A stretch of DNA of 40,375 nt from the NCBI GenBank assembly GCA_016218865.1, contig JACRCU010000354.1, forward strand, positions 1 through 40,375. Reading direction: 5' to 3'. The notes under the pieces were generated by a model. That model saw only the letters and a program-made list of their open reading frames with translations, made no database searches and had not been told where the DNA came from. This DNA is from Deltaproteobacteria bacterium. Lineage in GTDB: Bacteria > Myxococcota_A > UBA9042. Shown one piece after another: positions 1 through 31,705 of this stretch (positions within the stretch are counted from its first letter, which is position 1; the number at the start of each line of letters is the position of its first letter). A program made the translations under genes and the position numbers.

Positions 1-883
1 AGACCGGCGGGCGGAGAGTCCAACTGATACGGCTTCCGACATCGTGGGTCAACGGCAGGTCTTTGGTGGCCGACATATGGCAGGTGGCGCAGGTGGGGGC
101 GGCCGAGTAGTCCTCGCCCACGATCCACTTGGCCGAGTCCAGGTTCATCTTGCCCACGTTGGCGGCAAAGGCGATGCCGTGCTTGCTCTCTTCGTAGATC
201 TCCTTTTGCGGGTGGTCCGGGCCCAGGTGGCACTTGCCGCAAGTGTTGGGGTGGCGGGCCTGGGCGGCCGAGAAGTCATGGCGCATGTGGCACGAAGCGC
301 ACGAGCCCTCGCTGCCGTCGGGGTTCAGCCGGCCGACGCCGCTGTTGGGCCACGACGCCGCGTCGAGCTTGCCGTCCTTGACCTTGACCGGCGAGCCGTG
401 GCACTGCCAGCAACCATTGACGGCTGCAGCAGAATTGCCGCCAGGGAAGCCCGGGGTCTTGAAGGCGCGGTTGCCCTCGACCACTTCGGCCAGGGTGTTG
501 TCGAGCGAGCCGATGATCTGCCCGGCCTTGCTGTGGCGCGACCCGGCGAACTCCGCGACTTCGCGGGCGTGGCAGCGGCTGCAATCCTTGGGCGTGACGA
601 GCACCGAGATGGTGAAGCCGTTGTGGTCCAGAGCGTCCGCGTCGCCCTTCTCGGCGCGGTGGCACTCGTAGCAGCCGACGTTGGCGCGGTAGTGCTTGCT
701 CTGGCCCCACTGCTGGTACTGGGCCGGCGAGTCGTCTTTGTGGCAGCCGAGGCACTCCTTGGTCTCGGCCGTGATCGAGGTGGGCAGGCCGCTGGTGACG
801 GCGGGGCCGCGCGCGGGTGCGGGGCCGGCGGCAAAGGCGGTGCTGGCCATGCAAGTGAGCGTGAGTGCAACTAGAAATCGCAT
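1..883 (-). CDS. Multiheme cytochrome c, hydroxylamine oxidoreductase (HAO)-like family; 3' end truncated by window edge
   Basis: Open minus frame from ATG at 883 to the window edge, absent from the ORF track because it has no stop in the window. Reads MRFLVALTLTCMASTAFAAG...ECLGCHKDDSPAQYQQWGQSKHY...GCYECHRA...DCSRCH...GCWQCHGS...WPNSGVGRLNPDGSEGSCASCHMRHDFSAAQARHPNTCGKCHLGPDHPQKEIYEESKHGIAF...TCATCHMSAT. Seven CXXCH motifs and a signal peptide; text matches the HAO-like octaheme family. Confidence 0.85.
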   Translation of the reverse strand, partial: MRFLVALTLTCMASTAFAAGPAPARGPAVTSGLPTSITAETKECLGCHKDDSPAQYQQWGQSKHYRANVGCYECHRAEKGDADALDHNGFTISVLVTPKDCSRCHAREVAEFAGSRHSKAGQIIGSLDNTLAEVVEGNRAFKTPGFPGGNSAAAVNGCWQCHGSPVKVKDGKLDAASWPNSGVGRLNPDGSEGSCASCHMRHDFSAAQARHPNTCGKCHLGPDHPQKEIYEESKHGIAFAANVGKMNLDSAKWIVGEDYSAAPTCATCHMSATKDLPLTHDVGSRISWTLRPPV

Positions 884-899
884 GATGGAACTCCTTGCC

Positions 900-2219
900 T
901 TAGAAGGCCGTATTCAGCGTCAGGGCGCCGTAGTGCTCGGTCGTCAATTCCACAGTGTCGGCGTACTTCTTGATGCCGCGCATGGCCTCGCCGGGCAGGA
1001 ACATGCCGTACAGCAGGTGCAGCGAGGCGCCGGGCGCGAACTTCCACAGGGCGCGCACGTCCACTTCCTGGCCCACGTCGGTCTTGGGCTGCACGTCCTT
1101 GGCGTCGGTCAGGGCTTTGCCGGCCAGGGCGTGGCTGGCGAACATATGGAAGTCCACGCCCACGCTCAGGTCCTTGAGCGGAGTCGCCGCCAGGGTGACG
1201 CCAAAGTCGCGCAGGCCGCGGTTGGCGGTGTGCTTGGGGATGTTCAGGAACAGGTCGACTTCGCCGTAGAACTTGTGGTTGGTGGCGTACAGGGTGTCGA
1301 AGGCGTTCTCGGCGTTGCCGTCGCCCGAGACCTCGTCGAAGAACAGACCCACGGTGGGGGTGGCGACCACCGGCAGACCGTAGGCCAGGCGCGCGGTGCC
1401 CAGCCAGGCGCTGATGTCCTTGGCGCCCATGTGGCCGAACTGCTGATAGAACTCGGCGCTGTACGTCAGGCCGGCCGCCTTGCCATCGGCGTAGAGGCCG
1501 GCGGTGTGGCGCAGCTCGTTGCTGGTGGCGACCGCGCTGTCGTTCTTGCGCGCCAGCCACAGCAGCGAGACCCGCGCGGCGTCGCTCACGGCGTAGCGCC
1601 CGTGCAGGCCGCCGAACCAGATGTCGCCCGCCGACACGCCCACGTGGCCGTCGGCGTCGCCCATGTCGCGCTCGGTCAGGACCGTGGCGATCGCGCTGAC
1701 GTCGAGCGGGCCCTGGTTCCAGCGGAGGCGCGCACCGTCGAAGCGCCGCGCCCGCTGCACCCAGTCCAGGGCGCCCACCAGGCGCTGGGCGTCCAGGTTG
1801 ATTTCCTGGCGCCCGGCCTGCAGGGTCAGCTGGGGCATGCCCAGCGGAATCAGGACATAGGCCTCGTGGATGTCCATGCCCATGGCGGTGGTGGTCTGGG
1901 TGCCGCCGCCCAGCGGATCGGTCTCTTCGCCCCACACCCGCGTGTCCTGGAAGCGCAGCACCAGCTTGGGGCCGCCCGCGCGCTCGGCCGTGACGCCCAG
2001 GCGCGCCCGGTGCGACAGCCACTCGCGCTCCAGCGCCTCGGTGCCCTTGACGTCCTTGCCGCTGTCGACCTGGCCGCGCAGCCGGTACTGGCCGTCGAAG
2101 CCCAGGCGCCAATCAGACGACTCGATAGTCGGATGATTCTCCGCAGCCGCAGTCCCGGCCGCAGCAGCACTGACCGCGATGGCCATAAGTAGCATCCGTA
2201 CATTGCTAGAAGTTCTCAT
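900..2219 (-). CDS. Outer-membrane beta-barrel porin (alginate-export-like)
   Basis: ORF 900..2306; likely start MRTSSNVRMLLMAIAVSAAAAGTAAAENHP (signal peptide) at 2219. Body has amphipathic strand repeats (WRLGFDGQYRLRGQVDSG..., LQAGRQEINLDAQRLVG) and ends LNTAF with a C-terminal Phe. Confidence 0.75.
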   Translation of the reverse strand: MRTSSNVRMLLMAIAVSAAAAGTAAAENHPTIESSDWRLGFDGQYRLRGQVDSGKDVKGTEALEREWLSHRARLGVTAERAGGPKLVLRFQDTRVWGEETDPLGGGTQTTTAMGMDIHEAYVLIPLGMPQLTLQAGRQEINLDAQRLVGALDWVQRARRFDGARLRWNQGPLDVSAIATVLTERDMGDADGHVGVSAGDIWFGGLHGRYAVSDAARVSLLWLARKNDSAVATSNELRHTAGLYADGKAAGLTYSAEFYQQFGHMGAKDISAWLGTARLAYGLPVVATPTVGLFFDEVSGDGNAENAFDTLYATNHKFYGEVDLFLNIPKHTANRGLRDFGVTLAATPLKDLSVGVDFHMFASHALAGKALTDAKDVQPKTDVGQEVDVRALWKFAPGASLHLLYGMFLPGEAMRGIKKYADTVELTTEHYGALTLNTAF

Positions 2220-2600
2220 GTTTATCCTTGGTTCTGGTTCTGCAGATGGCGTCCAGCTCTCCCCCTGGGCCAAGTGCATGCTCGCGCTGGTTGCTCGGCA
2301 GGGCAAGAAGTCAATGGATATGAGAATCCATAATATGTCACAGAATTGTCAGAGATGGCCGGCCGAAGTTGAGGTGGGTCAGTTGTGGCCGGGCTCGGCC
2401 GGTGCCCGCACGGGACCGATCCCGACCGAGATCAGCCGACTGTGGGGCGGACTGCGGCGGTTGGTCGGCGGCCAAGCTGCGGGCCGGCCGCGACGGGGCC
2501 GTGACACAAGCGCGGGACGGTCAATCCGGCGTGATTCGTCGTTGTTGCATCGGGTGGCTGCGCCCGTCGGTGGCTGGTGTGACCTGCGTCAACCCGGGGC

Positions 2601-2759: not shown

Positions 2760-5700
2760 ATGCAACGGCCAGCCCGAATGTCCACGCTGAATTCATTGAA
2801 TTGCCACGCATATCTCTGGCGCGGCTTGGCTCTGCTGGGTGGATGGGCGCTGGTGGCCAGCCTTGCCGCCTGCGGCGACAACTTGGCGACCGACGAGCCG
2901 AGCCAGAGCGCCAAGGCGGACGCCAAGGACGACTCGAGCGTGGGCCTGGCCGATGCGCACGCGGACGCGGACGACGTCGGTGCGGCCGACGCCAGCCAGG
3001 GCGATGGCGTGGCGGGCGACGGCCAGGTCGGCGACGGTCAGGTGGGCGACGGGCAAGTCAGTGAAGTCGCAGATGAAGATGGGCAGGCAGACGGCGCCGA
3101 CCAACTCGACGCCGCCGCCGACGACGACGCCGCCGACGCCGCCGACGACGACGCCGCGGATGGCGACGCTGGCGAAGACACCGACGACGGCAAGGATGGC
3201 ATAGGTCCGCTGCCCGATCTGCCGATCTGGCCCGACACCGCGGTCGACGATCAAACCCAGCAGCCCGACGAGACCGTCGCCGATGCCGCCGCCCCCAGCG
3301 ACACCGAGCCGGCCGACGTGGCCGTGACCGACACCGTGGACGACGTGGCGACCCCCGACGCCGCGGCCGACGCGGGCGCCGCAGACGCAGCCGCCGACAC
3401 GGGCGGCGACACCGCGACCCAGGATGCCGGCAGCGATGCCAAGCCCTTCGAGCCGCCGCCAATCGACTGGGCGCCCGTGTGCTTCTACTGCCACGGCGAC
3501 GCCGCCCTGAAGACCCCGGCGCCGCCAGTGGACACCAAGGGCCAGGTCGACACCAAGCAACACGGCGTGGGCGCGCATGCCTCGCACGTGGGCGTGGCCA
3601 ATTGGCACAAGACCGTGGCGTGCGCCGAGTGCCACAAGGTGCCCAAAGTGTTCCTGGATCCCGATACGCCCAGCCACCTCAACGGGGCCACCGACCTCAT
3701 GTGGGGTCCGCTGGCCAAGCAAGGCGACTACAACTTTGGCGACCTGGCCTGTGGCAACACCTACTGCCACGGCGCCAGCCTGAAGCCGGACTTTGCCGGC
3801 GAGACCACAGTCCGCAAGCCAACTTGGACCACCCTGGACGGCAGCCAGGAAGCCTGCGGCAGCGCTTGCCACACCAACCCGCCCGGCGGCGCCCACCCAC
3901 CCGGCAAGGCCTGCCAGCTCTGCCACACTGCAGCGCTCAAGAGCTACGACGCCGCCGCCAAGACCGCGGTGTGGAACAACGCCAACTTGCACATCGACGG
4001 CAAGGTCGACGTGGAATTGGGCGCCACCTGCACCAGCTGCCACGGCGACCCCGCCAGCAAGAACCCGGCGCCACCGCTGGGCACCAAGGGCGAGACCAAG
4101 ACCAGCGACGTGGCCGTAGGCGCCCACGCCAAGCACCTGCAGGGCGGCACCCAAGGAAGCACCTGGCACCGCGCCGTGCAGTGCCGCGACTGCCACACCG
4201 TGCCCGTGCAGATTCCCCATGCCAACGGCGCGGTGGAGCTGAATTGGAGCCCGGTCGCCGCCTCGGGGGGCACCATCGGCACCTGGGACGAGGCGAACTC
4301 GGCCTGCGCCAACACGTGGTGCCACGGCGGCAACCAGGTCGGCGCCAAGGCCGGCGGCACGACCAACACCAAGCCGGTCTGGACCAAGGTCGACGGCAGC
4401 CAGGCCGCCTGTGGCACAACGTGTCACACCAACCCGCCGGGCGGCATGCACCCCAAGGCGAGCAACTGCGCGGCCTGCCACGGCCCCGTGATCGCCAGCT
4501 ACGACCCGACCAGCGGCGTGGCCAGCTGGGCCAACGCCAACCTGCACGTCGACGGCAAGGTCGACACCGCCAACCTGGGCTGCACCACCTGCCACGGCGA
4601 CGAGGCCACCAAGAACCCCGCGCCGCCCAAGGGCACCCAGGGCGAGACGGCCACCACCTCGCCTGCGGTGGGCGCACATGCCGCGCACTTGGGCGCCAGC
4701 GCCTGGCACCGCGCCGGCGAGTGCACCGACTGCCACAGCGTGCCGTCGGACCCGATGCACGCCAACGACAAGGTCGAGCTGAACTGGGGCGCGCTGGCCA
4801 AGACCAGCGGCGCCAAGCCGGATTTCGACGCCGCCAAGCTGACTTGCAACGCCAGCTACTGCCACGGCGCCACGCTGGAGCCGGCCAAGTCGGGCGGCAC
4901 CGTGATGCGCCAGCCGCAGTGGACCAAGGTCGACGGCAGCCAGGACACTTGTGGCACCACGTGTCACACCAACCCGCCCGGCGCCGGCCACCCCGCCAGC
5001 ACCGCCTGCGGCACCTGCCACGGCGACGTCGTCAAGACCTTCGACCCCGCCAGCGGCCAGACCACCTGGACCAACGCGGCCTTGCACATCGACGGCAAGC
5101 TGCAGATCGCCAGCATGGATTGCACCACCTGCCACGGCGACAAGGTGAGCAACAACCCCGCGCCGCCCAAAGGCAGCAAGGGCGAGACCGCCACCACCGC
5201 CCGCGCCGTCGGCGCCCACGCCGCCCACCTGACCGCCGCCGACTGGCACCGCGACACCGCCTGCACCGACTGCCACGCCGTGCCCAAGAGCAACCTGCAC
5301 AGCGACGGCACCGTGGACCTGGCCTGGGGCGCGCTCGCCCAGAGCGGCGGCGCTCAGACTACCTGGGATACCAATAAGTTGCAGTGCTCGGGCAACTACT
5401 GCCACGGCGCCACCCTGGCCCCGGCCAAGACCGGCGGCAGCAAGCTGGCGGCGCCCACCTGGACCACGGTGGACAACAGCCAGGACAAGTGCGGCGCGAC
5501 CTGCCACACCAACCCGCCCGGCGGCAAGCACGCCCAGGTCGACAACTGCCAGGCCTGCCACGGCGCGGTGATCAAGGCCTGGAACGCGACCACCGGCGTC
5601 GCCACCTGGCAGAACGGCAAGCTCCACGTCGACGGCACCGTGCAAGTGGCCAACGCCGACTGCACCACCTGCCACGGCGACGCCACCACCAAGAACCCCG

Positions 5701-8700
5701 CGCCGCCCAAGGGCACCAAGGGCGAGACCGCCACCACCACCGCCGCCGTCGGCGCCCACACCGCCCACCTTGGCACCAGCACCTGGCACCGCGCCGGGCA
5801 GTGCACCGACTGCCACGCCGTGCCGACCCAGATGAGCCACGCCGACAGCAAGATCGACTTTGCCTGGGGTTCGCTGACCCAGACCGGCGGCACCAGCACC
5901 AACTTTGACCTGACCGCGCTGAGCTGCACCGGCTCGTACTGCCACGGCGCCACCCTGGGCCCGGCCAAGAGCGGCGGCACCACCATGGTCAAGCCGACCT
6001 GGAACAAGGTCGACGGCAGCCAGGCCGCCTGTGGCACGACGTGTCACACCAACCCGCCCGGCGGCGGCCACTCGCCCAGCACGGCGTGCGCCACCTGCCA
6101 CACCGACGTGATCAAGAGCTACGACGCCGCCACCGGCCAGGCCACCTGGGCCAACGCGGCCCTGCACGTGGACGGCAAGGTGCAAGTGGCCGGCATGGAC
6201 TGCACCACCTGCCACGGCGACGCCACCACCAAGAACCCCGCGCCGCCCAAGGGCAGCAAGGGCGAGACCGCCACCACCGCCCGCGCCGTCGGCGCCCACG
6301 CCGCCCACCTGACCGCCGCCGACTGGCACCGCGACACCCTGTGCACCGACTGCCACAGCGTGCCCAGCAGCAACCTGCACAGCAACAACCAGGTCGACCT
6401 GGCCTGGGGCGCAGTCGCGCAAAGCAGTGGCGCCAAGACCACTTGGGACACCACCAAGCTGCAGTGCTCGGGCAACTACTGCCACGGCGCCACCCTGGCC
6501 CCGGCCAAGACCGGCGGCAGCAAGCTGGCGGCGCCCACCTGGACCACGGTAGACAACAGCCAGGACAAGTGCGGCTCGACCTGCCACACCAACCCGCCCG
6601 GCGGCGGCCACGCGCACGTCGACAACTGCCAGGCCTGCCACGGCGAGGTGATCAAGGCTTGGAACCCCAGCACCGGCGTCGCCACCTGGCAGAACGGCAA
6701 GCTCCACGTCGACGGCACTATCCAGGTCGGCAATGCCGACTGCACCACCTGCCACGGCGACGCGGCGACCAACAACCCCGCGCCGCCCAAGGGCACCAAG
6801 GGCGAGACGGCCACCACCGCCGCCGCGGTCGGCGCCCACCGCGTCCACCTGGGTGCGACCACCTGGCACCGCGCAGGCCAGTGCACCGACTGCCATACCA
6901 TCCCGACCTCGATGAGCCACGCCAACAACGTGTTGGACCTGGCCTGGGGCTCGCTGACCCAGACCGGCGGCGCCAACACCAATTTCGAGCCGTCGACACT
7001 GGGTTGCACCGGCTCGTACTGCCACGGCGCCACCCTGATGCCCGCCAAGGCCGGCGGCACCACCCTGGCCAAGCCGATCTGGAACAAGGTCGACGGCAGC
7101 CAGGACGCCTGCGGCTCGACCTGCCACACCAACCCGCCCGGCGGCAGCCACCCGGCCAGCACCGCCTGCGCCACCTGCCACGGCGCCAGCATCAAGACCT
7201 TTGACGCCGCCACCGGTCAGGCCACCTGGACCAACGCCAATTTGCACGTCAACGGCAAGGTCGAGCTGTCGCAGCTCGCCTGCACCAGCTGCCACGGCGA
7301 TCCGGTCACCGGCGCCGCCAACCCGCCGCTGGGCACGCAAGGCCAGACCCAGACGACGCAAAAGGCCGTGGGCGCCCACCAGGCCCACCTGGGCAGCGGC
7401 GGCTGGCACCGCGCCGGCCAGTGCGCCGACTGCCACACCGTGCCGACCTCGATGACCCACACCGACGGCAAGGTCGACCTGGCCTGGAGCAGCCTGGCCC
7501 AGACCGGCACCGCCAACCCCACCTGGGACGGCAGCGCCGCCACCTGCAGCGGGAACTACTGCCACGGCAGCACCCTGGCCCCGGCCAAGACCGGCGGCCA
7601 GGTCCAGCGCACCCCCGCCTGGACCAAGGTCGACGGCAGCCAGGACGCTTGTGGCACAACGTGTCACACCAACCCGCCGGGCGCCAGCCACCCCAAGAGC
7701 GCCACCTGCAACCTGTGCCACGACGCGGTGATCAGCAGCTTCGACCCCGCCAAGAACACCGCGGTGTGGAAGAACCCGCTGCTGCACGTCAACGGCAACA
7801 TCGAGGTCAAAGCGCTGGATTGCACCACCTGCCACGGCGACGCGACCAGCAAGAACCCGGCGCCGCCCGTGGACACGCTGGGCAACACGGCCACCACCGC
7901 CGCCGGCGTGGGCGCGCACGCTCAGCACCTGGGCGCCAGCACCTGGCACCGCGCCGGTCAGTGCGCCGACTGCCACACCGCGCCCACCTCGAACCTGCAC
8001 GCCAACGGTGCGCTGGATCTGGCCTGGGGCACGGTGCCGCTGAGCGACGCCGCCAAGCCGGCCTACGACCAGTCGATCCTGACCTGCACCGGCTCGTACT
8101 GCCACGGCACCACCCTGATGGGCGCCAAGAGCGGCGGCGGCACCAACCGCCAGCCGATCTGGAACGTGGTCAACAACACCTTCGACGCCTGCGGCAGCAC
8201 CTGCCACACCAACCCGCCCGGCGGCACCCACCCGGCCAGCGCGGCGTGCGCCACCTGCCATCCGGCCACCATCGCCGCGTACAACGCCACCACAAACGTC
8301 GCCACCTTCAAAGACGCGACCTTGCACATCAACGGCAAGGTCGACGTGGTCGGCCTGGCCTGCACCACCTGCCACGGCGACGCCGCCAGCAACAACCCGG
8401 CGCCGCCGCTGGGCACCAAGGGCGAGACCGCCACCACCACCAAGGCCGTGGGCGCCCACGCCAAGCACGGCGGCAGCAGCACTTGGCACCGCGACGTGGC
8501 CTGCACCGACTGCCACAGCGTCCCCGCGTCGATGACCCACAGCAACGGCAGCGTGGACCTGAGCTGGAGCAGCGTGGCCAGCGCCGACCAGAGCGTGCCG
8601 GCGTGGAACAGCGCGACCACCACCTGCTCGGGCAACTACTGCCACGGCAGCAGCTTGCTGGGCGCCAAGGCCGGCGGCACCGTGATGCGCACGCCCGTTT

Positions 8701-11700
8701 GGACCAAGGTCGACGGCAGCCAGGCCGCTTGTGGCACAACGTGTCACACGCTGCCGCCCGGCGGTACCCACCCGCAAAACAACCAGTGCGCCACCTGCCA
8801 CACCACCGTGATCGCCAGCAACGACCCGGCCACCACCCCGGTCAAGTGGGCCGACCGCAAGCTGCACATCGACGGCAAGATCGATGTGGGTACGCTGACG
8901 TGCACCAGCTGCCACGGCGACAAGGCCAGCAACAACCCGGCGCCGCCGGTCGGCACCAAGGGCGAGACGGCCACCAGCAGCGTCGCCGTCGGCGCGCACG
9001 CCCAGCACCTGGGTGCCAGCAGCTCGCACCGCCCCGGCCAGTGCACCGACTGCCACGTGGTACCCGTGTCACTGCAACACGGCAACGGGACTACTGAAAT
9101 GACCTGGGGCGCCCTGCCCAAGACCGCCAGCCAGACGCCGCTGTGGGACAAGACCACCGCCACCTGCGCCGGCAACTACTGCCACGGCACCAGCCTGGAG
9201 CCCGCCAAGGCCGGCGGCACCACCATGCGCACGCCCAAGTGGACCCAGGTCGACGGCAGCCAGGGCAAGTGCGGCAGCACCTGTCACACCAACCCGCCCG
9301 GCGGCCCGCACCCGGCCAGCGACAAGTGCGCAATGTGCCACAGCGCCGTGATCAGCGGCTACGACACGGCGGCGGCCACGGCGACCTGGAAGGATCCGGG
9401 CTTGCACGTGGACGGCACCCTGCAGGTGACCACCTTGACCTGCACCAGCTGCCACGGCACCGCCAGCACCAACGACCCGATGCCGCCCAAGGGCACGCTA
9501 GGCGAGACCGCCACCACCACCAAGGCGGTCGGCGCACACAAGCAGCACCTGGGCTCCAGCGCCTGGCACCGCGCCGGCGCGTGCGTCGACTGCCACACCG
9601 TGCCGACCTCGCAGACCCACACCAACAACACCGTGGATCTGGCGTGGGGCAGCGTGGCCACCGCCGGCACCGCCCAGCCGGCCTGGAACACCACCGCCGC
9701 CACCTGCTCGGGCAACTGGTGCCACGGCGGCAAGCTGCCTGGCGCCAACGCCGGCGGCACCGTGATGCAGACGCCCAAGTGGACCCTGGTCGACGGCAGC
9801 CAGGCGGCCTGTGGCACCACGTGTCACACCAACCCGCCCGGCGGCAGCCACCCGCAGAGCACCAACTGCAACCTGTGCCACGCCGGCGTGATTGCCAGCT
9901 ACGACGCCAACGCCAAGACCGCGGTGTGGAAGAACGCGACCCTGCACGTCGACGGCAACGTGGACGTGGTGGGCATGAGCTGCACCAGCTGCCACGGCGA
10001 TGCGGCGGCCAACGATCCGTCGCCGCCGCTGGGCACCAAGGGCGAGACCCAGACCACCCAGGTCGCGGTCGGCGCGCACGCCCAGCACATGGGCCCGTCG
10101 AACTGGCGCGGCGCAGTGCTGTGCAGCGACTGCCACACGGTGCCGACGTCGATGACCCACACCAACGGCACCGTCGACGTCAACTTTGCCGGCCTGTCCG
10201 TGGCCGACACCGCCAACCCGACCTGGAGCAAGAGCACCGTCACCTGCAGCGGCAGCTACTGCCACGGCGCCACCCTGATGCCGGCGGCGACCGGCGGCAC
10301 GGTCAACCACAACCCGCTGTGGACCAAGGTCGACGGCAGCCAAGACGCCTGCGGCAGCACCTGCCACACCAACCCGCCGGGCGGCACTCACCCGCCGAAC
10401 ACCGCCTGCAACCTGTGCCACAACCAGGTGATCGGCGGCTACGACGCGGCGGCCAAGACCGCGACCTGGGCCGACCCGACCCTGCACATCAACGGCAAGG
10501 TCGAGGTCAAGACCCTGACCTGCACCAGCTGCCACGGCGACACCGCCAGCAACAACCCCGCGCCGCCGCTGGGCACCAAGGGCGAGACCCAGACCAGTCA
10601 GGCCGCTGTGGGCGCCCATGCCCAGCACCTGGCCACCAGCACCTGGCACCGCAACGGCCAGTGCACCGACTGCCACAGCGTGCCGGTCTCGGTCGGCCAC
10701 GCCAACGGCAGCACCGACTTCAGCTGGGGCGGGCCGTCTGCGCTCAATGGCGCCAACCCGCAGTTCGCGGCCGGCAACGTGAGCTGCAGCGGCGCCTACT
10801 GCCACGGCAACACCCTGTACGGGCCCAAGCCCGGCGGCTCGGTCGCGCGCACGCCGGTGTGGACCACCGTCAACGGCAGCTGGGACGCTTGTGGCACGAC
10901 GTGTCACACCCTGCCGCCGGCGGCGCCGCACCCGCAGAACGAGAACTGCGCGCAGTGCCACGCTGCGGTGGTGACGTCGATCGTCTTGGGCACGCCGCCC
11001 ACGGTGGTGTGGCAGGATGCGCAGTTGCACATCGACGGCAAGATCGACACCGGCACCGTGACCTGCACCAGCTGTCACGGCGACAAGGTGGCCAACAACC
11101 CGGCGCCGCCGATCGGCAGCAAGGGCGAGACCCAGACCACCCAGAAGGCGGTCGGCGCGCACGCGGTGCACCTGGCGGCGGGCTCGACCTGGCACCGCGA
11201 CGGCCAGTGCACCGACTGCCACACGGTACCGGTCTCGATGACCCACGCCAACGGCACCAGCGACCTGAACTGGAGCGCGCCCAGCAACGTCGGCAACCTG
11301 TCGCCGAGCTACGCCATCGACGCCAAGTGCAGCAACAACTGGTGCCACGGCTCGGGCCTGGGCGCGGCCAAGACCGGGGGCACGCTGAACCGCACGCCGT
11401 TGTGGACCCAGGTCGACGGTACGCAGGACGCTTGTGGCACAACGTGTCACACCAACCCGCCCGGCGGCGGCCACGTGGCCCACACCGACTGCACCATCTG
11501 CCACACCGCGGTGGTGGCGGCCTTCAACCCGGCCAACAACGCCACCACCTGGACGGACCGCACGCTGCACGTCAATGGTGTCAAGGAGTCGAACAAGTAT
11601 CACGACTTGGGTGGCTGGACCACGCCGAAGTTCGGCACCAACCACCACGGCAGCAACTACTTCGTGCGCAACCAGCAGCGCGACGAGCACAACGTGTCCT

Positions 11701-12461
11701 GCACGCAGTGCCACGGTGCCGACTTGCTGGGCGGCACGGTCGGCGTCTCGTGCGCCAACAGCAGCTGCCACGGCGGCGACTGGAAGTCCTGCGACTTCTG
11801 CCACGGCACCAAGGGCGGCAGCGCCGCCCCGCCGATCGGTGTGGCCAACGAGGGCACCACGGCCACCAACACCCTGGCCGTCGGCCGCCACACCGCGCAC
11901 TTGACGGCCTCGACCACCCACGTGGCCTTTGCCTGCACCACCTGCCACACCGTGCCGGCCACGGGCGACCTCGCCCACGCCATGCAGTACGTGTACTCGG
12001 CGAACCTGACCACCGCCGGCCACCACGGCGACGTCACCTTCGCCGGCGGCACCGCCAACGGCATGACCTTCAACGTCGCCGCCACCACCGGCAACCCGGT
12101 CACCGCCCGCGGCACTTGCGTGGGCACCTGCCACAGCAACGGCCGCGGCGGACCGCCGGTCACCACGCCCTACTGGGCCGGCGGCAACTGGAACAAGGGC
12201 AGCTGCGGCACCTGCCACGCGGCCATGCCCAACACCGGCGAGCACGACAAGCACGTCAACGGCGAGAACATGACCTGCGTCGAGTGCCACCCGGCCGCCA
12301 CCGCCGCGACCCACATGAACGGTAGCCGCGACGTGCTGGCCACCATCAAACCGGCCAGCGGCTCGGGCTCGACCACCACCAGCCCGGCGTCGGGCAACTG
12401 CACCACCCGCCGCTGCTCGGGCAGCTGCCACGGCGAGAACCACAGCAGCCGCTGCTGGTAG
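2760..12461 (+). CDS. Giant repetitive multiheme c-type cytochrome lipoprotein (Geobacter CxxxxCH...CXXCH-type domains)
   Basis: 3233-aa ORF; alternative start ATG at 2778 (MSTLNSLN). Lipobox-like LAAC, an Asp/Ala-rich linker, then 15 pentaheme units each with CXXCH-GD, CXXCH-VP, CX4CH-G, CX3CH-TNPPGG and CXXCH, plus an 8-motif tail. Confidence 0.95.
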   Translation: MQRPARMSTLNSLNCHAYLWRGLALLGGWALVASLAACGDNLATDEPSQSAKADAKDDSSVGLADAHADADDVGAADASQGDGVAGDGQVGDGQVGDGQVSEVADEDGQADGADQLDAAADDDAADAADDDAADGDAGEDTDDGKDGIGPLPDLPIWPDTAVDDQTQQPDETVADAAAPSDTEPADVAVTDTVDDVATPDAAADAGAADAAADTGGDTATQDAGSDAKPFEPPPIDWAPVCFYCHGDAALKTPAPPVDTKGQVDTKQHGVGAHASHVGVANWHKTVACAECHKVPKVFLDPDTPSHLNGATDLMWGPLAKQGDYNFGDLACGNTYCHGASLKPDFAGETTVRKPTWTTLDGSQEACGSACHTNPPGGAHPPGKACQLCHTAALKSYDAAAKTAVWNNANLHIDGKVDVELGATCTSCHGDPASKNPAPPLGTKGETKTSDVAVGAHAKHLQGGTQGSTWHRAVQCRDCHTVPVQIPHANGAVELNWSPVAASGGTIGTWDEANSACANTWCHGGNQVGAKAGGTTNTKPVWTKVDGSQAACGTTCHTNPPGGMHPKASNCAACHGPVIASYDPTSGVASWANANLHVDGKVDTANLGCTTCHGDEATKNPAPPKGTQGETATTSPAVGAHAAHLGASAWHRAGECTDCHSVPSDPMHANDKVELNWGALAKTSGAKPDFDAAKLTCNASYCHGATLEPAKSGGTVMRQPQWTKVDGSQDTCGTTCHTNPPGAGHPASTACGTCHGDVVKTFDPASGQTTWTNAALHIDGKLQIASMDCTTCHGDKVSNNPAPPKGSKGETATTARAVGAHAAHLTAADWHRDTACTDCHAVPKSNLHSDGTVDLAWGALAQSGGAQTTWDTNKLQCSGNYCHGATLAPAKTGGSKLAAPTWTTVDNSQDKCGATCHTNPPGGKHAQVDNCQACHGAVIKAWNATTGVATWQNGKLHVDGTVQVANADCTTCHGDATTKNPAPPKGTKGETATTTAAVGAHTAHLGTSTWHRAGQCTDCHAVPTQMSHADSKIDFAWGSLTQTGGTSTNFDLTALSCTGSYCHGATLGPAKSGGTTMVKPTWNKVDGSQAACGTTCHTNPPGGGHSPSTACATCHTDVIKSYDAATGQATWANAALHVDGKVQVAGMDCTTCHGDATTKNPAPPKGSKGETATTARAVGAHAAHLTAADWHRDTLCTDCHSVPSSNLHSNNQVDLAWGAVAQSSGAKTTWDTTKLQCSGNYCHGATLAPAKTGGSKLAAPTWTTVDNSQDKCGSTCHTNPPGGGHAHVDNCQACHGEVIKAWNPSTGVATWQNGKLHVDGTIQVGNADCTTCHGDAATNNPAPPKGTKGETATTAAAVGAHRVHLGATTWHRAGQCTDCHTIPTSMSHANNVLDLAWGSLTQTGGANTNFEPSTLGCTGSYCHGATLMPAKAGGTTLAKPIWNKVDGSQDACGSTCHTNPPGGSHPASTACATCHGASIKTFDAATGQATWTNANLHVNGKVELSQLACTSCHGDPVTGAANPPLGTQGQTQTTQKAVGAHQAHLGSGGWHRAGQCADCHTVPTSMTHTDGKVDLAWSSLAQTGTANPTWDGSAATCSGNYCHGSTLAPAKTGGQVQRTPAWTKVDGSQDACGTTCHTNPPGASHPKSATCNLCHDAVISSFDPAKNTAVWKNPLLHVNGNIEVKALDCTTCHGDATSKNPAPPVDTLGNTATTAAGVGAHAQHLGASTWHRAGQCADCHTAPTSNLHANGALDLAWGTVPLSDAAKPAYDQSILTCTGSYCHGTTLMGAKSGGGTNRQPIWNVVNNTFDACGSTCHTNPPGGTHPASAACATCHPATIAAYNATTNVATFKDATLHINGKVDVVGLACTTCHGDAASNNPAPPLGTKGETATTTKAVGAHAKHGGSSTWHRDVACTDCHSVPASMTHSNGSVDLSWSSVASADQSVPAWNSATTTCSGNYCHGSSLLGAKAGGTVMRTPVWTKVDGSQAACGTTCHTLPPGGTHPQNNQCATCHTTVIASNDPATTPVKWADRKLHIDGKIDVGTLTCTSCHGDKASNNPAPPVGTKGETATSSVAVGAHAQHLGASSSHRPGQCTDCHVVPVSLQHGNGTTEMTWGALPKTASQTPLWDKTTATCAGNYCHGTSLEPAKAGGTTMRTPKWTQVDGSQGKCGSTCHTNPPGGPHPASDKCAMCHSAVISGYDTAAATATWKDPGLHVDGTLQVTTLTCTSCHGTASTNDPMPPKGTLGETATTTKAVGAHKQHLGSSAWHRAGACVDCHTVPTSQTHTNNTVDLAWGSVATAGTAQPAWNTTAATCSGNWCHGGKLPGANAGGTVMQTPKWTLVDGSQAACGTTCHTNPPGGSHPQSTNCNLCHAGVIASYDANAKTAVWKNATLHVDGNVDVVGMSCTSCHGDAAANDPSPPLGTKGETQTTQVAVGAHAQHMGPSNWRGAVLCSDCHTVPTSMTHTNGTVDVNFAGLSVADTANPTWSKSTVTCSGSYCHGATLMPAATGGTVNHNPLWTKVDGSQDACGSTCHTNPPGGTHPPNTACNLCHNQVIGGYDAAAKTATWADPTLHINGKVEVKTLTCTSCHGDTASNNPAPPLGTKGETQTSQAAVGAHAQHLATSTWHRNGQCTDCHSVPVSVGHANGSTDFSWGGPSALNGANPQFAAGNVSCSGAYCHGNTLYGPKPGGSVARTPVWTTVNGSWDACGTTCHTLPPAAPHPQNENCAQCHAAVVTSIVLGTPPTVVWQDAQLHIDGKIDTGTVTCTSCHGDKVANNPAPPIGSKGETQTTQKAVGAHAVHLAAGSTWHRDGQCTDCHTVPVSMTHANGTSDLNWSAPSNVGNLSPSYAIDAKCSNNWCHGSGLGAAKTGGTLNRTPLWTQVDGTQDACGTTCHTNPPGGGHVAHTDCTICHTAVVAAFNPANNATTWTDRTLHVNGVKESNKYHDLGGWTTPKFGTNHHGSNYFVRNQQRDEHNVSCTQCHGADLLGGTVGVSCANSSCHGGDWKSCDFCHGTKGGSAAPPIGVANEGTTATNTLAVGRHTAHLTASTTHVAFACTTCHTVPATGDLAHAMQYVYSANLTTAGHHGDVTFAGGTANGMTFNVAATTGNPVTARGTCVGTCHSNGRGGPPVTTPYWAGGNWNKGSCGTCHAAMPNTGEHDKHVNGENMTCVECHPAATAATHMNGSRDVLATIKPASGSGSTTTSPASGNCTTRRCSGSCHGENHSSRCW
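3019..3200 (+). repeat. Asp/Ala/Gly low-complexity linker, including 15-bp (VGDGQ)n repeats
   Basis: VGDGQVGDGQVGDGQV followed by DAAADDDAADAADDDAADGDAGED, directly after the lipoprotein N-terminus. Confidence 0.8.
3480..11603 (+). repeat. 15 tandem pentaheme units; units starting 4581 to 10521 have exact 540-bp spacing
   Basis: First Cys codon of the CT[TS]CHG motif at 4029, 4581, 5121, 5661, 6201, 6741, 7281, 7821, 8361, 8901, 9441, 9981, 10521 and 11064. First unit begins with CFYCH near 3480. Confidence 0.95.
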
Positions 12462-13343: not shown

Positions 13344-13811
13344 CTACTTGCCGTGGCAGGCCTTGCACTTGTCGATGCCAGCTTTCTGGGGATTGGCCTT
13401 GGCGACGGCCTTGTGGCAGTCCAGGCAGGTCTTGTGGAAGACCACCGTGCCCTTGTCGAAGTCGTCGCCCTTGGCGGTGGCGAGCACGGGCGCCTTCTTG
13501 CCGCCGAACTCCTTCTGCGGCTGGCCGTCGGCCACGTGGCAGTCGCCGCAACCCTTGATGTCCTTGGCGCTTTTTGGCTCACCCTTTTCGGTGTGGTGAC
13601 AGGTTTTGCAGCCGATGGCGCCGCCTTTGGCGTCTTTGAACTCGCTGGCGTGCTTGGCGTGGGCGAACTTGACCGCGCCCTTCTTGCCCTTGATCAGGTC
13701 GAGCTTGATTTCTGCTTTGTCCTTGGGCACTTCGGTTGCGAGCGCCACACCCAGGAATGAGCCGAGACTGAAAAGAACCGCGACCAACCATGCGCTGCGC
13801 TTGTTCCACAT
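13344..13811 (-). CDS. Tetraheme class III (c3-type) cytochrome
   Basis: Signal peptide; CKTCHH, CGDCH, CLDCH and CKACH; upstream FAHAKH and FHKTC histidines; 155 aa. Confidence 0.85.
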   Translation of the reverse strand: MWNKRSAWLVAVLFSLGSFLGVALATEVPKDKAEIKLDLIKGKKGAVKFAHAKHASEFKDAKGGAIGCKTCHHTEKGEPKSAKDIKGCGDCHVADGQPQKEFGGKKAPVLATAKGDDFDKGTVVFHKTCLDCHKAVAKANPQKAGIDKCKACHGK

Positions 13812-14201
13812 GACCTGAACCTCCGGCGCGACCTAGGCGCCCTGCTGGGGTGTGCGTGGCAAGGGAGCTTGCCAACTTCGACCGCAGCCGGCGTTCGTGA
13901 ACGTGCCGGCGCGGATATCCAGACTACGCGCCGACCGGCGCGCGCATTCAAGGGCGCCGTCCGTCAACCGCGCAAGAACAGACGGTTTGTGACGGAACCG
14001 TGGCGAATACCGGGGCCGGTCAAGTCCGCGCGGCCCGCGCTTGCCGACCGTGCCGGCGCTGGCTATGCTGCAACCGGCCCTGGGGATTCCCCGCCCCGCG
14101 GCCGTTCCCGCGTTCCCCCGCGCCCCATGTCTGCCCAGCGTGTCGCTCGCCTTGTGCTGGCGGCGCCGCGTGTTCTTGCCCCAAGGTCGCCGAGGGTCGC
14201 C

Positions 14202-25658: not shown

Positions 25659-27290
25659 TCACTTGCAGATCCTGGATAAGGGATAGCGGTAGCCGTCCCG
25701 GTGGGCGAAGTAGGAGTCCAAGCCACCGAGGGTGACGAAATCCTGATCGGTCAGCACGCTGCTACCGCCACCTGGTCCGTAATCCTGGTCGTCTGGCCAG
25801 CCCCAAATCGGCAATACTGCAAGTGTCAGGTCGTCGCGGATGACCGTGGCCCGCGCCAAAGACGTACTGACGTCGCTGCCAGCCCACCACGCCGGGTATG
25901 CCAGAACCATACCGCAGGGAACCCGATGGCCGGCAGAGCGTTCAGCGTTGCCAACGTCAAACGACGCAGGTACTGGCGCCTCAGTTAGGACCCCATTCGC
26001 CAGCCGCGCGACACTGTCACCTGGATCCCGAACGATTAAGATCGCGCCCGAGTCGTCCACGACCGCCGAATGGACGTGCCCAGAACTCCACTTCTTAGGT
26101 ACCGTCCCAACATCACTCCAAGTCCCAGTGGCCAGATCGTACTTCAGGACATGTCCGACGTCCTTGGCAAAGGTCCCGTCGGGAAACGGCTTTTGCCCGT
26201 TGACCGAGTCGTAGGCGAAGACGGCGTTGGTGTTGGCGAGAATCCGCAATGAGTCTATATAGCCGTCGGCCGGTACAAATGCCGTTGGAAACTGGGCGTC
26301 GACATAGGTCTCTTTGACCGGGTCGATGAGCTGGAGGCGACCGGCAGGCGGGAACCCGGGCTCCGCGATCTTGGCCTCTAGCCGTGCGACCAAATTGCCG
26401 GTGCTGGCGATACGGCCCCAGCCCACGTTGCCCGTTTTCCATTGCGAGGCCGTGTTGGATACGGGGTCGTACAGCACGCGCACCCAGTTGTCGGTGCTGG
26501 CGATGACCACCTTCCCCGCCGCCGCCGCGACCTCGAATTCGGAGTAATGCGCCTCCTGAACGCCCAGTGGAATCTTCTCGAAGCCCTTGCCGCTCTTGGG
26601 ATCCCAGCGCTCGGCGCGGAAGAAGTAACTGTGGTCCCACTTCGACGCGGGGCTGTTGATCACGTGGTCATAAGTAACCGAAACCACCCACTTCCCCGTC
26701 CAAACCGCCTTGCTGTTGAAGTGCGGCTTCTTCAAATCGGGCGTCCGCAACCACGCACACTCCCCGTTGCAGTAGCACGAATACGGCAAGGGACAGTCGC
26801 AGGTACTGCAGCCCACGGCCACCGGCTGCGGCGGCGGCGCACTGCCGCAGGTGAACACGGGGTTCGACACCAGAGGGCCCACGTCGAGCAAAAGCGTCGT
26901 GCCTTCCGGCGGGTACACGGCGGTGCCGGTGCAATCTGCCGGCATGCCGCCGACGTCGAACGTGTCGCTCGTTTTGGTGTCGGCCACGTCGCCGATGTTG
27001 GTACCCGCTTCATCCGCGGGCCAGGTCTCCTGGAAGGCCGCGTCGGGACTGTGGGAGTCCTCGCTGTCGGCGGCGACGCTATCGGCAACGTCGCTCGCCA
27101 AGTCGGTGTTTATGGGAGCAGCGTCCGGCGCGTCCAAGGCTGAGTCTACCACTGCGCCACTCACCGCGGCGTCCGCGGTTGCCGGGCCCGGGCTCGGCGA
27201 ACAGGCCGTCAAGAGCGCCAAAACGCACGCAATCACCAGCCATGCCCAGGTGGTATGGTGCTGGGTCGGTCTGCTGGTGCGGGTCGGCAT
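25659..27290 (-). CDS. Secreted Asp/Ala-rich lipoprotein, possible beta-propeller
   Basis: Lipobox LLTAC, Asp/Ala linker, Cys cluster CSTCDCPLPYSCYCNGEC, then repeated Kelch-like strands. Confidence 0.7.
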   Translation of the reverse strand: MPTRTSRPTQHHTTWAWLVIACVLALLTACSPSPGPATADAAVSGAVVDSALDAPDAAPINTDLASDVADSVAADSEDSHSPDAAFQETWPADEAGTNIGDVADTKTSDTFDVGGMPADCTGTAVYPPEGTTLLLDVGPLVSNPVFTCGSAPPPQPVAVGCSTCDCPLPYSCYCNGECAWLRTPDLKKPHFNSKAVWTGKWVVSVTYDHVINSPASKWDHSYFFRAERWDPKSGKGFEKIPLGVQEAHYSEFEVAAAAGKVVIASTDNWVRVLYDPVSNTASQWKTGNVGWGRIASTGNLVARLEAKIAEPGFPPAGRLQLIDPVKETYVDAQFPTAFVPADGYIDSLRILANTNAVFAYDSVNGQKPFPDGTFAKDVGHVLKYDLATGTWSDVGTVPKKWSSGHVHSAVVDDSGAILIVRDPGDSVARLANGVLTEAPVPASFDVGNAERSAGHRVPCGMVLAYPAWWAGSDVSTSLARATVIRDDLTLAVLPIWGWPDDQDYGPGGGSSVLTDQDFVTLGGLDSYFAHRDGYRYPLSRICK

Positions 27291-27526
27291 GGCGAGGTCC
27301 ACGGGGCGGTCAAGGGCGAGACTGCGTCCGCGGGCGGGCCAAGTCAAGGCGAGATTCTCGGATCACGTGCCCGTCATTCCGTCGTTTGGTCTGCGGAGGC
27401 GAACTTCTCCGCGCGAGTTTGGGTCTTCAGCATGGGTCAACCATGAGCCCGGTTACTCCGCACAGCCACTGGCTTTGGCCACGGACAAACGGCCTGAGCC
27501 AAGCCCCGACGCAACCCCCATGCGCC

Positions 27527-29245: not shown

Positions 29246-31558
29246 CTATGGCACCGCAGGCGTCAGCGCCACTGGATCACCGGCAAAGTCCAAGCCTATT
29301 GAGTAGGCGTCCGGGTAGCCATTGCCATCGCTGTCCATGTCGGGCGCGACGCTCTGCAGCAACAGCGCCTTGACGCTGAGCATGTCCAGGCCCGTTTCAG
29401 CATAGAACGATGCCGGAAGGTTATCGACCATCGTGACCAGGTCCATTTTGGTCACCCAGCCGCATAGCGTGCCGGCACTCAGCGCGCTCATAGGTCCGCT
29501 GCCCGGCACCGTCGCTTGGAGGCGAGCGCCCTTGAGCCACCAACGCTTGGAAGTGGGCGCGGCGGTCATCGGCAGTGCCACCACGTAGTAGTCACCGCCC
29601 GCGTACAGCTTGCCGCCGCTGATGTGGGCATTGTTCCATACGGAAACCGGCGGGCAGGCGCTGACGGTGCTGGACAGGTGGTAGGCGCTGACGTCGGGCA
29701 CGAGCGAACAGCTTTGCACGCCTTTCTCAAAGGGTTTGCAGGCCGCGCTGCCGACGGTGGCCAAGCTTGGCAGCAAGTGCAGTGCGAACCCGGATCCCGA
29801 CATGGTGTAGCCGTTGGCGACCAGCGCCATGACAAAAGGTTTGCCGCCGCCAGCGGGCCCTTGGCCGCCCGCCAGGACGATACCGAACATCTTGCCCAGC
29901 GCGTTGTCGACCTTGCCATCGCCGGTCAGGTCGCAGCCGGTACCGCTCTGGGGCTCGGTCCAGTGCAGCCACACGGAATCGGCCGGATAGTTTTTGGGTA
30001 GTGCGCACTTAGGGGTGGCGCAGGCGCCGGCGTTGCAGACCTTGCTGCCGCAGGGCGCCTCGATCCAGGCCATGCCGTCAGTGGCGCAGATGGCGCTGGA
30101 ATTGCCAAAGCAGCCGGTTGTGCCGGCGGTGCACAACTGCGAGATGCATTTGCCTTGGTTGCAGGATTGCCCTTGCATCGCGCAGTCTTGCTGCTGCTTC
30201 CACGCCATGCCATCGGCACTGCAGGTCAGGACGTGCGAGCCGGCGCAGCCGCTGACCCCGGGCGGGCACGGGTACTTGATGCACTGGCTCTGGTAGCAGA
30301 CGCCCATGCCAGACGTCGCGCAATCGCCGCCCTCGACCCAGCCCTTGCCGTCGTTGCAGTACATCCCCTTGCTGCCGTCGCACACCGACTCGTTGGGCTG
30401 GCACACCGGCGCTTGGCAAGTGCCGTTGACGCACAGCAGGCCCTTGGACTTACAGTCCTCGATTGGGGTGATTGCGTTGTTGGGACCGCACTGCACCGCC
30501 ACGTCGGCCTGACACCCAATGCCGCCCGGCAGGCACGGCAAGTCGACGCACGCACCGTTCATGCAGATGCTGTTGCCCTTGGACTGGCAACTGTACGCCT
30601 TGTTCCACGCCGATCCAGACGAGTTGCAGTAGCTGAGGACGGTGCCGGTGCAGGTGGTCTCGCCGGGGAGGCACACCAAATCAACGCATGTACCGTCCGC
30701 GCAGGTCTTTCCTTTGGCTCCGCAATCATCCAACGTGGCGTAACCGCTGGCGATGCACTGGAAGACGTGTTTGTCGGCGCAGCCTATGCTGCTCGGCGGG
30801 CACCACAGCTTCTCGCATTTGCCCCCTGCGCAAAGAGCGCCGTAGATCGAACAGTCAAACGCCCATTGCTGGTGCATGCCGTCGGGTGTGCATGCGAAAC
30901 CCGCGAAGCCTTGGCATGTGACCTGGTTGGGCTTGCAGACCTGTGCTGCGCATTGGCCGGCCAAGCAGCCCAAGCCCTTGGAGGCGCAGTTTTCGAGCAG
31001 GCTGGTGCCCAGGCCGTCAGCACTGCACTTCATTGCCAGGATGCCATCGCAAAAAACCTGTCCTGGAGCGCACTTGCTGGCCAGGCAGGCGCCGTTGCTG
31101 CACACAGTCTTGCCGGAGCAGGCGACGGTTTGCCAGGTCAGGGTGATGGGGTCGCAAACCCGTAGCGCGCTTGGGGACTCGCACACAGGCGCCTGGCCGT
31201 CGCAGCTCTGCTGCGGCAGGCATTGGTGATTCCTGCAAGCGGCGCCGCCGCCGCAGTCGCCGTCGACCAAGCAGGCCACGCAGGCGCCGCTGACGGGATC
31301 GCACTGCAAACCCTTGGCAGTGCAGGTATTTTGAGTGTCACAGGCGACGGTGTCGGTGGCAGCCGGGTCGGCGTCGGCGTCGGCGACGGCGCTGGCGGTT
31401 GCGTCTTGCGCTGCGTCAACGGACTCCGCCGCTGCATCGGTCTGCACGTCGGCGCTAGCGGTTGGCCCAGTCGCACTTTGCGTGGCTTTGGCGGTCCCGC
31501 AGCCCAGGGCCACCGCCACAGTCACGGCAAGGATCCGGGCCGTCTGTCCCTTTGGCAT
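29246..31558 (-). CDS. Asp/Ala-rich lipoprotein with about ten tandem Cys-rich repeats and Ca-binding-like loops
   Basis: AVALGCG lipobox; repeats of the form C.PG...C......C..DG.....DC...G..C..G.C; DLTGDGKVD and DMDSDGNGYPD. Confidence 0.8.
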   Translation of the reverse strand: MPKGQTARILAVTVAVALGCGTAKATQSATGPTASADVQTDAAAESVDAAQDATASAVADADADPAATDTVACDTQNTCTAKGLQCDPVSGACVACLVDGDCGGGAACRNHQCLPQQSCDGQAPVCESPSALRVCDPITLTWQTVACSGKTVCSNGACLASKCAPGQVFCDGILAMKCSADGLGTSLLENCASKGLGCLAGQCAAQVCKPNQVTCQGFAGFACTPDGMHQQWAFDCSIYGALCAGGKCEKLWCPPSSIGCADKHVFQCIASGYATLDDCGAKGKTCADGTCVDLVCLPGETTCTGTVLSYCNSSGSAWNKAYSCQSKGNSICMNGACVDLPCLPGGIGCQADVAVQCGPNNAITPIEDCKSKGLLCVNGTCQAPVCQPNESVCDGSKGMYCNDGKGWVEGGDCATSGMGVCYQSQCIKYPCPPGVSGCAGSHVLTCSADGMAWKQQQDCAMQGQSCNQGKCISQLCTAGTTGCFGNSSAICATDGMAWIEAPCGSKVCNAGACATPKCALPKNYPADSVWLHWTEPQSGTGCDLTGDGKVDNALGKMFGIVLAGGQGPAGGGKPFVMALVANGYTMSGSGFALHLLPSLATVGSAACKPFEKGVQSCSLVPDVSAYHLSSTVSACPPVSVWNNAHISGGKLYAGGDYYVVALPMTAAPTSKRWWLKGARLQATVPGSGPMSALSAGTLCGWVTKMDLVTMVDNLPASFYAETGLDMLSVKALLLQSVAPDMDSDGNGYPDAYSIGLDFAGDPVALTPAVP

Positions 31559-31705
31559 GGTAGCCTCCTTGGCAGAGCATCGCGCTATGCCGGCGAAAGC
31601 TCAACCTCGTCGCGGCAAGCACGCGTAGATCCGCAACCGCCTTCGCCACCGAGCCCGACCTCCGCATCGCCCACCTTGCATCCGCCAAAACCGGACCATC
31701 CGGCC

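Follow-up and report, generated by a model that had tools for sequence, protein, structure and literature searches.

The window analyzed here (the whole stretch of DNA, an entire contig of 40,375 bases) belongs to a genome assembly of 5.35 Mb in 576 contigs that is 82% complete. It contains an open reading frame for a giant cytochrome of 3233 amino acids, with an ATG start and no internal stop; an in-frame second ATG at 2778 is a possible true start. An earlier reading made from the letters of the DNA alone (the sequence-only reading) had described the product as a lipoprotein with many haem motifs in a single polypeptide, and the open reading frame, the motif count, and the signal peptide with its lipobox bear this out. 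Repeat units of about 180 amino acids, in which the motif spacings follow the order 2-2-4-3-2 (2 for CXXCH, 3 for CX3CH, and 4 for CX4CH), were placed by motif positions and by profile matches, and the tail was defined from alignments of the tails of 18 proteins. The features are as follows.

1-913, minus strand: multihaem PF13447 cytochrome with 7 CXXCH visible, truncated by the end of the contig and lying immediately downstream of the porin gene
900-2348, minus strand: Alginate_exp-like porin, divergent from the giant cytochrome gene
2760-12461, plus strand: open reading frame of the giant cytochrome
2760..2870, plus strand: signal peptide, residues 1-37, with the hydrophobic stretch GLALLGGWALVASLAA ahead of the lipobox
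2871..2873, plus strand: lipobox cysteine Cys38 (LAAC|G), predicted lipidation site from a pattern match
2874..3479, plus strand: Asp/Ala-rich low-complexity linker, residues 39-240
3480..4028, plus strand: five-haem unit 1 (2-2-4-3-2)
4029..4580, plus strand: five-haem unit 2
4581..5120, plus strand: five-haem unit 3
5121..5660, plus strand: five-haem unit 4, which shares 88% identity with unit 6
5661..6200, plus strand: five-haem unit 5, which shares 75% identity with unit 7
6201..6740, plus strand: five-haem unit 6
6741..7280, plus strand: five-haem unit 7
7281..7820, plus strand: five-haem unit 8
7821..8360, plus strand: five-haem unit 9
8361..8900, plus strand: five-haem unit 10
8901..9440, plus strand: five-haem unit 11
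9441..9980, plus strand: five-haem unit 12
9981..10520, plus strand: five-haem unit 13, without the WHR histidine and with the other five histidines present
10521..11063, plus strand: five-haem unit 14
11064..11615, plus strand: five-haem unit 15
11616..12458, plus strand: C-terminal tail with eight motifs (2-4-2-2-3-2-2-3), ending in SGSCHGENHSSRCW
13344-13832, minus strand: small tetrahaem class III-like cytochrome (PF02085)

The motif tally claimed at the outset is exact: the 83 motifs comprise 50 CXXCH, 17 CX3CH, and 16 CX4CH, with no cysteine shared between motifs, and their positions confirm the layout of 15 consecutive 2-2-4-3-2 units followed by a 2-4-2-2-3-2-2-3 tail. Nearly all cysteines of the protein (166/170) fall inside haem motifs, and the only four that do not are Cys15, the lipobox Cys38, Cys3214, and Cys3232. 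When the protein sequence was shuffled 1000 times, the mean number of motifs was 1.6 and the maximum was 6. The apo mature protein has a mass of approximately 324 kDa, to which 83 haems would add approximately 51 kDa.

Two local features of the protein deserve description. Along 5121-7280 the similarity between units alternates (88% for units 4/6, 75% for units 5/7), which probably marks a mid-array duplication of two units or gene conversion; the same alternation is seen in L024, a gene from a second genome described below. At the C-terminus (window 12399-12458, residues 3214-3233), the extra Cys3214 and Cys3232 flank the last tail motif, and inspection of the tail alignments by eye indicated that their counterparts tend to co-occur or both be missing. 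This pattern suggests that a disulfide between them may close the C-terminus of the giant cytochrome.

Among relatives with a complete N-terminus, most have a lipobox (by pattern) or a Cys after a hydrophobic stretch (by eye). The Gly at +2 and the linker, which contains 51 Asp and 7 Glu in 202 residues, would suggest sorting of the lipoprotein to the outer membrane. The acidic linker noted in the sequence-only reading is thus present, but it is not special to the giant cytochrome: the predicted lipoproteins at 25659-27362 and 29246-31600 (minus strand) carry a similar Asp/Ala-rich stretch close to the N-terminus, so the linker looks like a habit of the lineage rather than a hallmark of the cytochrome.

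Tandem repeats misassemble readily, and units as alike as 4 and 6 raise the question of whether the array is a chimeric assembly of a shorter repeat gene, a refuting outcome that the sequence-only reading had itself named. A separately assembled genome of another species in the same genus (G003; the window's genome is G000) carries the array on contig CAISBR010000066.1 (L024), as an open frame of 3257 codons with the same 50/17/16 motifs in identical order. Every one of the 15 units finds its best match at the same position of the array in L024 (73-88% identity), whereas two units of the same protein are for the most part 50-68% alike. Five further genes in the same family, from other genomes, have 13 units each and are mutually consistent, being largely positional orthologues of one another. 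An assembly artifact is almost certainly not the explanation. Over 2988 aligned codons, the window gene and L024 are 80% identical, with dS 0.54 and dN 0.14 by simple Nei-Gojobori counting, and the aligned residues retain 168/168 Cys and 189/190 His. The one-to-one units in the second species, the agreement of the 13-unit genes, and this conservation indicate that the array is older than these species and is under purifying selection.

The survey of homologues for unit number proposed with the original reading yielded a length series of about 2 to 15 units. Complete or near-complete genes elsewhere have about 2, 3, 4, 5, 6, 12, or 13 units, and the layout of the tail is constant regardless of unit number in the alignments of 18 proteins. 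The motif totals of relatives equal 5n+8 or 5n+7, the latter because a CX6CH (e.g., CNNSTINCH) replaces the CX4CH of the tail. In L030 (12323-12349) and likewise in the tails of L026, L032, L033, L034, L039, L041, L045, L048, L050, and L052, CNNSTINCH or a similar sequence occupies this position with the Cys and His kept; it is possible that this CX6CH is a very wide haem-attachment motif. When the window gene was compared with a gene from another genus (L025), the first and last units matched best and the middle units less clearly, so expansion of the array seems to occur mainly in its middle.

Units of the family were found at E<=1e-20 in 53/379 sampled genomes of the phylum Myxococcota, and the named relatives are mostly uncultured Myxococcales or Deltaproteobacteria. 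Some related arrays depart from the 2-2-4-3-2 pattern. A separate giant on JACRCV010000006.1 (L058:8720-18088) has 3123 codons, 80 motifs, and 14 units of mainly 2-2-4-2-2 pattern, with other multihaem genes close by; several of its units are 80-90% identical, which appears to be the result of recent amplification. In an array from an uncultured Archangium (L065:1469-5641), haem 3 has a CX3CH motif in place of CX4CH (2-2-3-2-2), so changes in attachment spacing are not confined to a single site in the unit. Three further loci (L075, L078, and L079, from genomes G001, G004, and G002) contain arrays of a two-haem repeat of about 55 residues following the start of a 2-2-4-2-2 unit, and ResB-type genes lie on the same contigs.

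The sequence-only reading had counted six conserved non-motif histidines in most units and considered them enough for bis-His ligation of five haems. We aligned 283 units to one profile, among them 211 of the 2-2-4-3-2 pattern and 66 of the 2-2-4-2-2 pattern, which served as an outgroup. Five of the six histidines (unit positions 33, 36, 60, 137, and 169) are invariant in 211/211 units of the 2-2-4-3-2 pattern, a count that does not represent independent trials because the source genomes are related, and the same five are present in 86-100% of the 66 outgroup units, where the misses are mostly alignment edges or small shifts. The sixth, the WHR histidine at position 43, proved dispensable: it occurs in 94% of the 211 units, in 14% of the outgroup units, and in 14/15 units of the giant cytochrome. 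The argument from histidine supply is strengthened by this result, as each five-haem unit has five invariant candidates for the distal His and no more, one candidate ligand for each haem, those of CX3CH and CX4CH included.

The CX3CH of haem 4 aligns with a CXXCH in the outgroup (CGTTCHTNPPG vs CGSCHGAPP), as a canonical site that is one residue longer. Because its counterpart is an ordinary CXXCH, the most fitting interpretation is a derived haem site that is homologous to the canonical motif. In three genomes of the same genus (G001, G002, and G004), the haem 4-5 block exists alone as the repeat of about 55 residues, most copies of which contain exactly two non-motif histidines, equivalent to His137 and His169. 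These free repeats indicate that the unit is composed of a three-haem block and a two-haem block; any pairing of ligands with haems that is finer than this split is presumptive.

Maturation machines are best known for CXXCH, and on this ground one might suppose that haem is attached only at the CXXCH sites (50/83), with CX3CH and CX4CH being degenerate, metal-binding, or disulfide-forming. We consider this quite improbable, because CX3CH and CX4CH keep their Cys and His throughout the 211 units of the defining pattern, the invariant distal histidines number five and not three, CX3CH aligns with the canonical CXXCH of outgroup units, and the TIGR01904 cytochrome domain has CX4CH in its name. 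From these alignments, the loading of all five haems in each unit appears well supported.

We predicted the structure of two units with AlphaFold2 from a 99-row alignment of unit pairs and obtained a confident model (pLDDT 87, pTM 0.70); a prediction from the window's 15 units alone gave a pLDDT of 43. The two-unit model places His33 and His36 in a short helix and the motif of haem 5 at the start of a helix. Sequence and profile searches of the PDB found no relative of the array unit, and a Foldseek search of the two-unit model against the PDB returned no match; Foldseek performs poorly on haem proteins that have little secondary structure, so we do not claim a new fold. For the filament subunits OmcS, OmcE, and OmcZ, neither the PDB sequence searches nor Foldseek, with the same weakness for such proteins, detected a relationship to the unit.

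We also investigated which maturation genes accompany the array. System I genes (CcmF) are present in all five genomes tested, and G000 and G003 additionally encode a CcsBA-like fusion. Within the window's family, ResB was found in 15/15 genomes that the unit profile matched and in 0/7 that it did not match, and in some genomes the ResB gene shares a contig with a unit-family cytochrome. However, ResB had no match in eight genomes with CX3CH arrays that were reached through other loci. ResB is thus not required, and we rejected a dedicated System II maturation for CX3CH sites as a requirement. The correlation between ResB and the unit family may reflect shared ancestry.

On the 3' side of the giant cytochrome gene, a GST gene and the class III cytochrome gene lie on the other strand, and no kinship between the array units and this neighboring cytochrome was detected. 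In the relatives examined, the gene stands alone: no conserved neighborhood was found, and no cytochrome or porin neighbor is kept, the Alginate_exp porin included; the PF13447 cytochrome and this porin possibly form a separate porin-cytochrome pair. A search with the PF11854 family found no MtrB/PioB porin in five genomes. Cytochromes of the OmcA/MtrC family (TIGR03507) are present in the four array genomes tested (G000, G003, G010, and G019) and absent from G005, a genome of the same genus that lacks the array.

We propose, with a probability of roughly 0.6, that the gene encodes an exported, lipid-anchored giant multihaem cytochrome with five bis-His haems per unit that serves as an electron conduit and charge reservoir at the cell surface. 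Each unit of about 180 residues would be one folded module with five covalent bis-histidine haems, divided into a three-haem block (haems 1-3, with His33, His36, and His60) and a two-haem block (haems 4-5, with His137 and His169). Fifteen modules and an eight-haem cap would then carry as many as 83 haems in one covalent chain, which the acidic linker tethers. Electrons may enter from outer-membrane cytochromes or redox partners, hop from haem to haem, and leave to extracellular acceptors, or travel in the reverse direction. The linker end and the cap end, whose layout is constant, would probably provide anchoring and docking, and the number of middle units would set reach and capacity. Low-spin bis-His haems and electron hopping are what the established biochemistry of cytochromes c would lead one to expect, and we infer the surface location and the conduit or capacitor function. 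More tentatively, we suggest that the protein is anchored in the outer membrane with the array outside, that its tail acts as a cap for docking, and that it takes part in extracellular electron exchange or in charge storage. OmcS-like spacing is about 0.8 nm per haem; by way of illustration, 83 haems spaced in this way would span some 60 nm.

Exposed lipoproteins typically have long acidic linkers, and this argues against an array that works inside the periplasm, from the outer membrane inwards, as do its length of nearly 3000 residues, far beyond what the periplasm would be expected to need, and the wide differences in unit number among relatives. Outer-membrane lipoproteins can nevertheless face inwards, and long periplasmic multihaem proteins exist in Gallionellaceae (PCC3) and Geobacter (PMC10734462, PMC10138318). 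We regard a periplasmic array as unlikely.

Alternatively, the cytochrome might chiefly store charge (as a capacitor) or buffer redox state, either on the outer membrane or inside it, and not conduct over long distances; such a role might suit, for example, cells that cross an oxic-anoxic boundary. The large number of haems, the stand-alone gene without conserved conduit partners, the failure to find MtrB in five genomes, and the origin of relatives in environmental metagenome sets with titles including groundwater are all consistent with it, and other giant cytochromes have been proposed to act as capacitors (PMC7399161, PMC11495043). Regular modules, one distal His per haem, and a constant tail fit a directional chain at least as well, and we think storage alone rather improbable.

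The occurrence of the same module at other copy numbers in relatives indicates that the conduit and reservoir proposed above is probably a genetically encoded wire or store for electrons, of a length that evolution has varied. A bolder version is possible, though on the whole doubtful: a covalent nanowire in which a single polypeptide achieves what OmcS-like polymers achieve through assembly. How many five-haem modules it contains would fix its length, which would stay the same in close relatives and differ from lineage to lineage, and the one-residue-longer CX3CH (along with CX6CH in some tails) would be a fixed, fully loaded haem site. The relatives constitute a natural length series built from one five-haem module, in which the scaling of conduction and charge storage with haem number in a covalent chain, and the haem loading of CX3CH, CX4CH, and CX6CH sites, become testable on one scaffold. 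With units in 53 of the sampled genomes, the array also points to a capacity for extracellular electron transfer in uncultured Myxococcota.

To place the protein among known cytochromes, we compared it with family models. In the HMM check for GSu_C4xC__C2xCH that the sequence-only reading had recommended, TIGR01904 matched above its curated cut-off of 27 bits (274.2 bits for the whole protein, 34.5 bits for unit 5 alone), but in hmmscan the whole protein fell below the gathering score of PF09698 (17.4 vs 21.7 bits); a six-frame search with PF09698 gave single stretches of up to 25.8 bits, the best in the tail. The literal TIGR01904 motif, CX4CH followed by CX2CH, is absent, since all 15 units have CX4CH followed by CX3CH; outgroup units do show CX4CH-CXXCH. 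Because of this difference in the second motif, we call the giant cytochrome a variant that is homologous to TIGR01904. The region from haem 3 (CX4CH) to haem 4 is homologous to the TIGR01904/PF09698 cytochromes of Geobacter and relatives, but here the second motif is CX3CH and the region is part of 15 regular five-haem units. PF14522 (cytochrome c7 and related) also scored above its gathering cut-off (196 bits over 24 stretches; 33.9 bits for a single unit), although a match to so broad a haem-motif model is weak evidence of kinship. The TIGR04257 triheme domain had no match to the giant cytochrome and a weak match to the relative L075 only.

Like the decahaem OmcA/MtrC proteins (TIGR03507, PF22113), the giant cytochrome is a multihaem lipoprotein, but it had no match to TIGR03507 in NCBIfam up to E=1, and hhalign against two TIGR03507 proteins gave a weak probability of 15.7%. 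PF22113 passes only when summed over the repeats and fails for single units, and with the failed OmcA/MtrC profile comparison this led us to reject concatenated MtrC/MtrF domains. Geobacter GSU1996-type nanowire cytochromes (tandem c7) share the principle of small haem modules joined covalently in one chain; their modules have three haems, in contrast to the five-haem modules and far longer chain described here.

The suggestion in the sequence-only reading that this could be an undescribed system was overstated, as the repeat is homologous to TIGR01904 and single-protein cytochromes with 86 to 113 motifs have been published: 86 in a Desulfuromonas acetexigens protein that is expressed when electrodes or iron oxide serve as acceptor (PMC12133095), 86 in ANME-2c (PMC9012536), 112 in a Paludibaculum metagenome-assembled genome (PMC11495043), and 113 in Methanoperedenaceae (PMC7082337). 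These giants are likewise single polypeptides, with a comparable or larger number of haems and a presumed role in extracellular electron transfer or storage; they differ in that the archaeal ones have S-layer domains and that the parts of these reports drawn on here mention no regular five-haem 2-2-4-3-2 unit. The giant cytochromes of Burkholderiales and Anaerolineales gain and lose haem-bearing domains in blocks (PMC7399161), and in this block-wise difference between relatives they resemble the family described here. They have 49 haems at approximately 23 residues per haem and lie beside a porin, whereas in the giant cytochrome there are 36 residues to each haem, the block is always one of five haems, and no porin is kept beside the gene in relatives. 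The open-access literature searched yielded no account of a tandem array of five-haem 2-2-4-3-2 units, nor of giant cytochromes from this Myxococcota group. We conclude that giant single-chain cytochromes as such were already known, and that what is new here is the regular, length-variable, mixed-spacing array of five-haem units.
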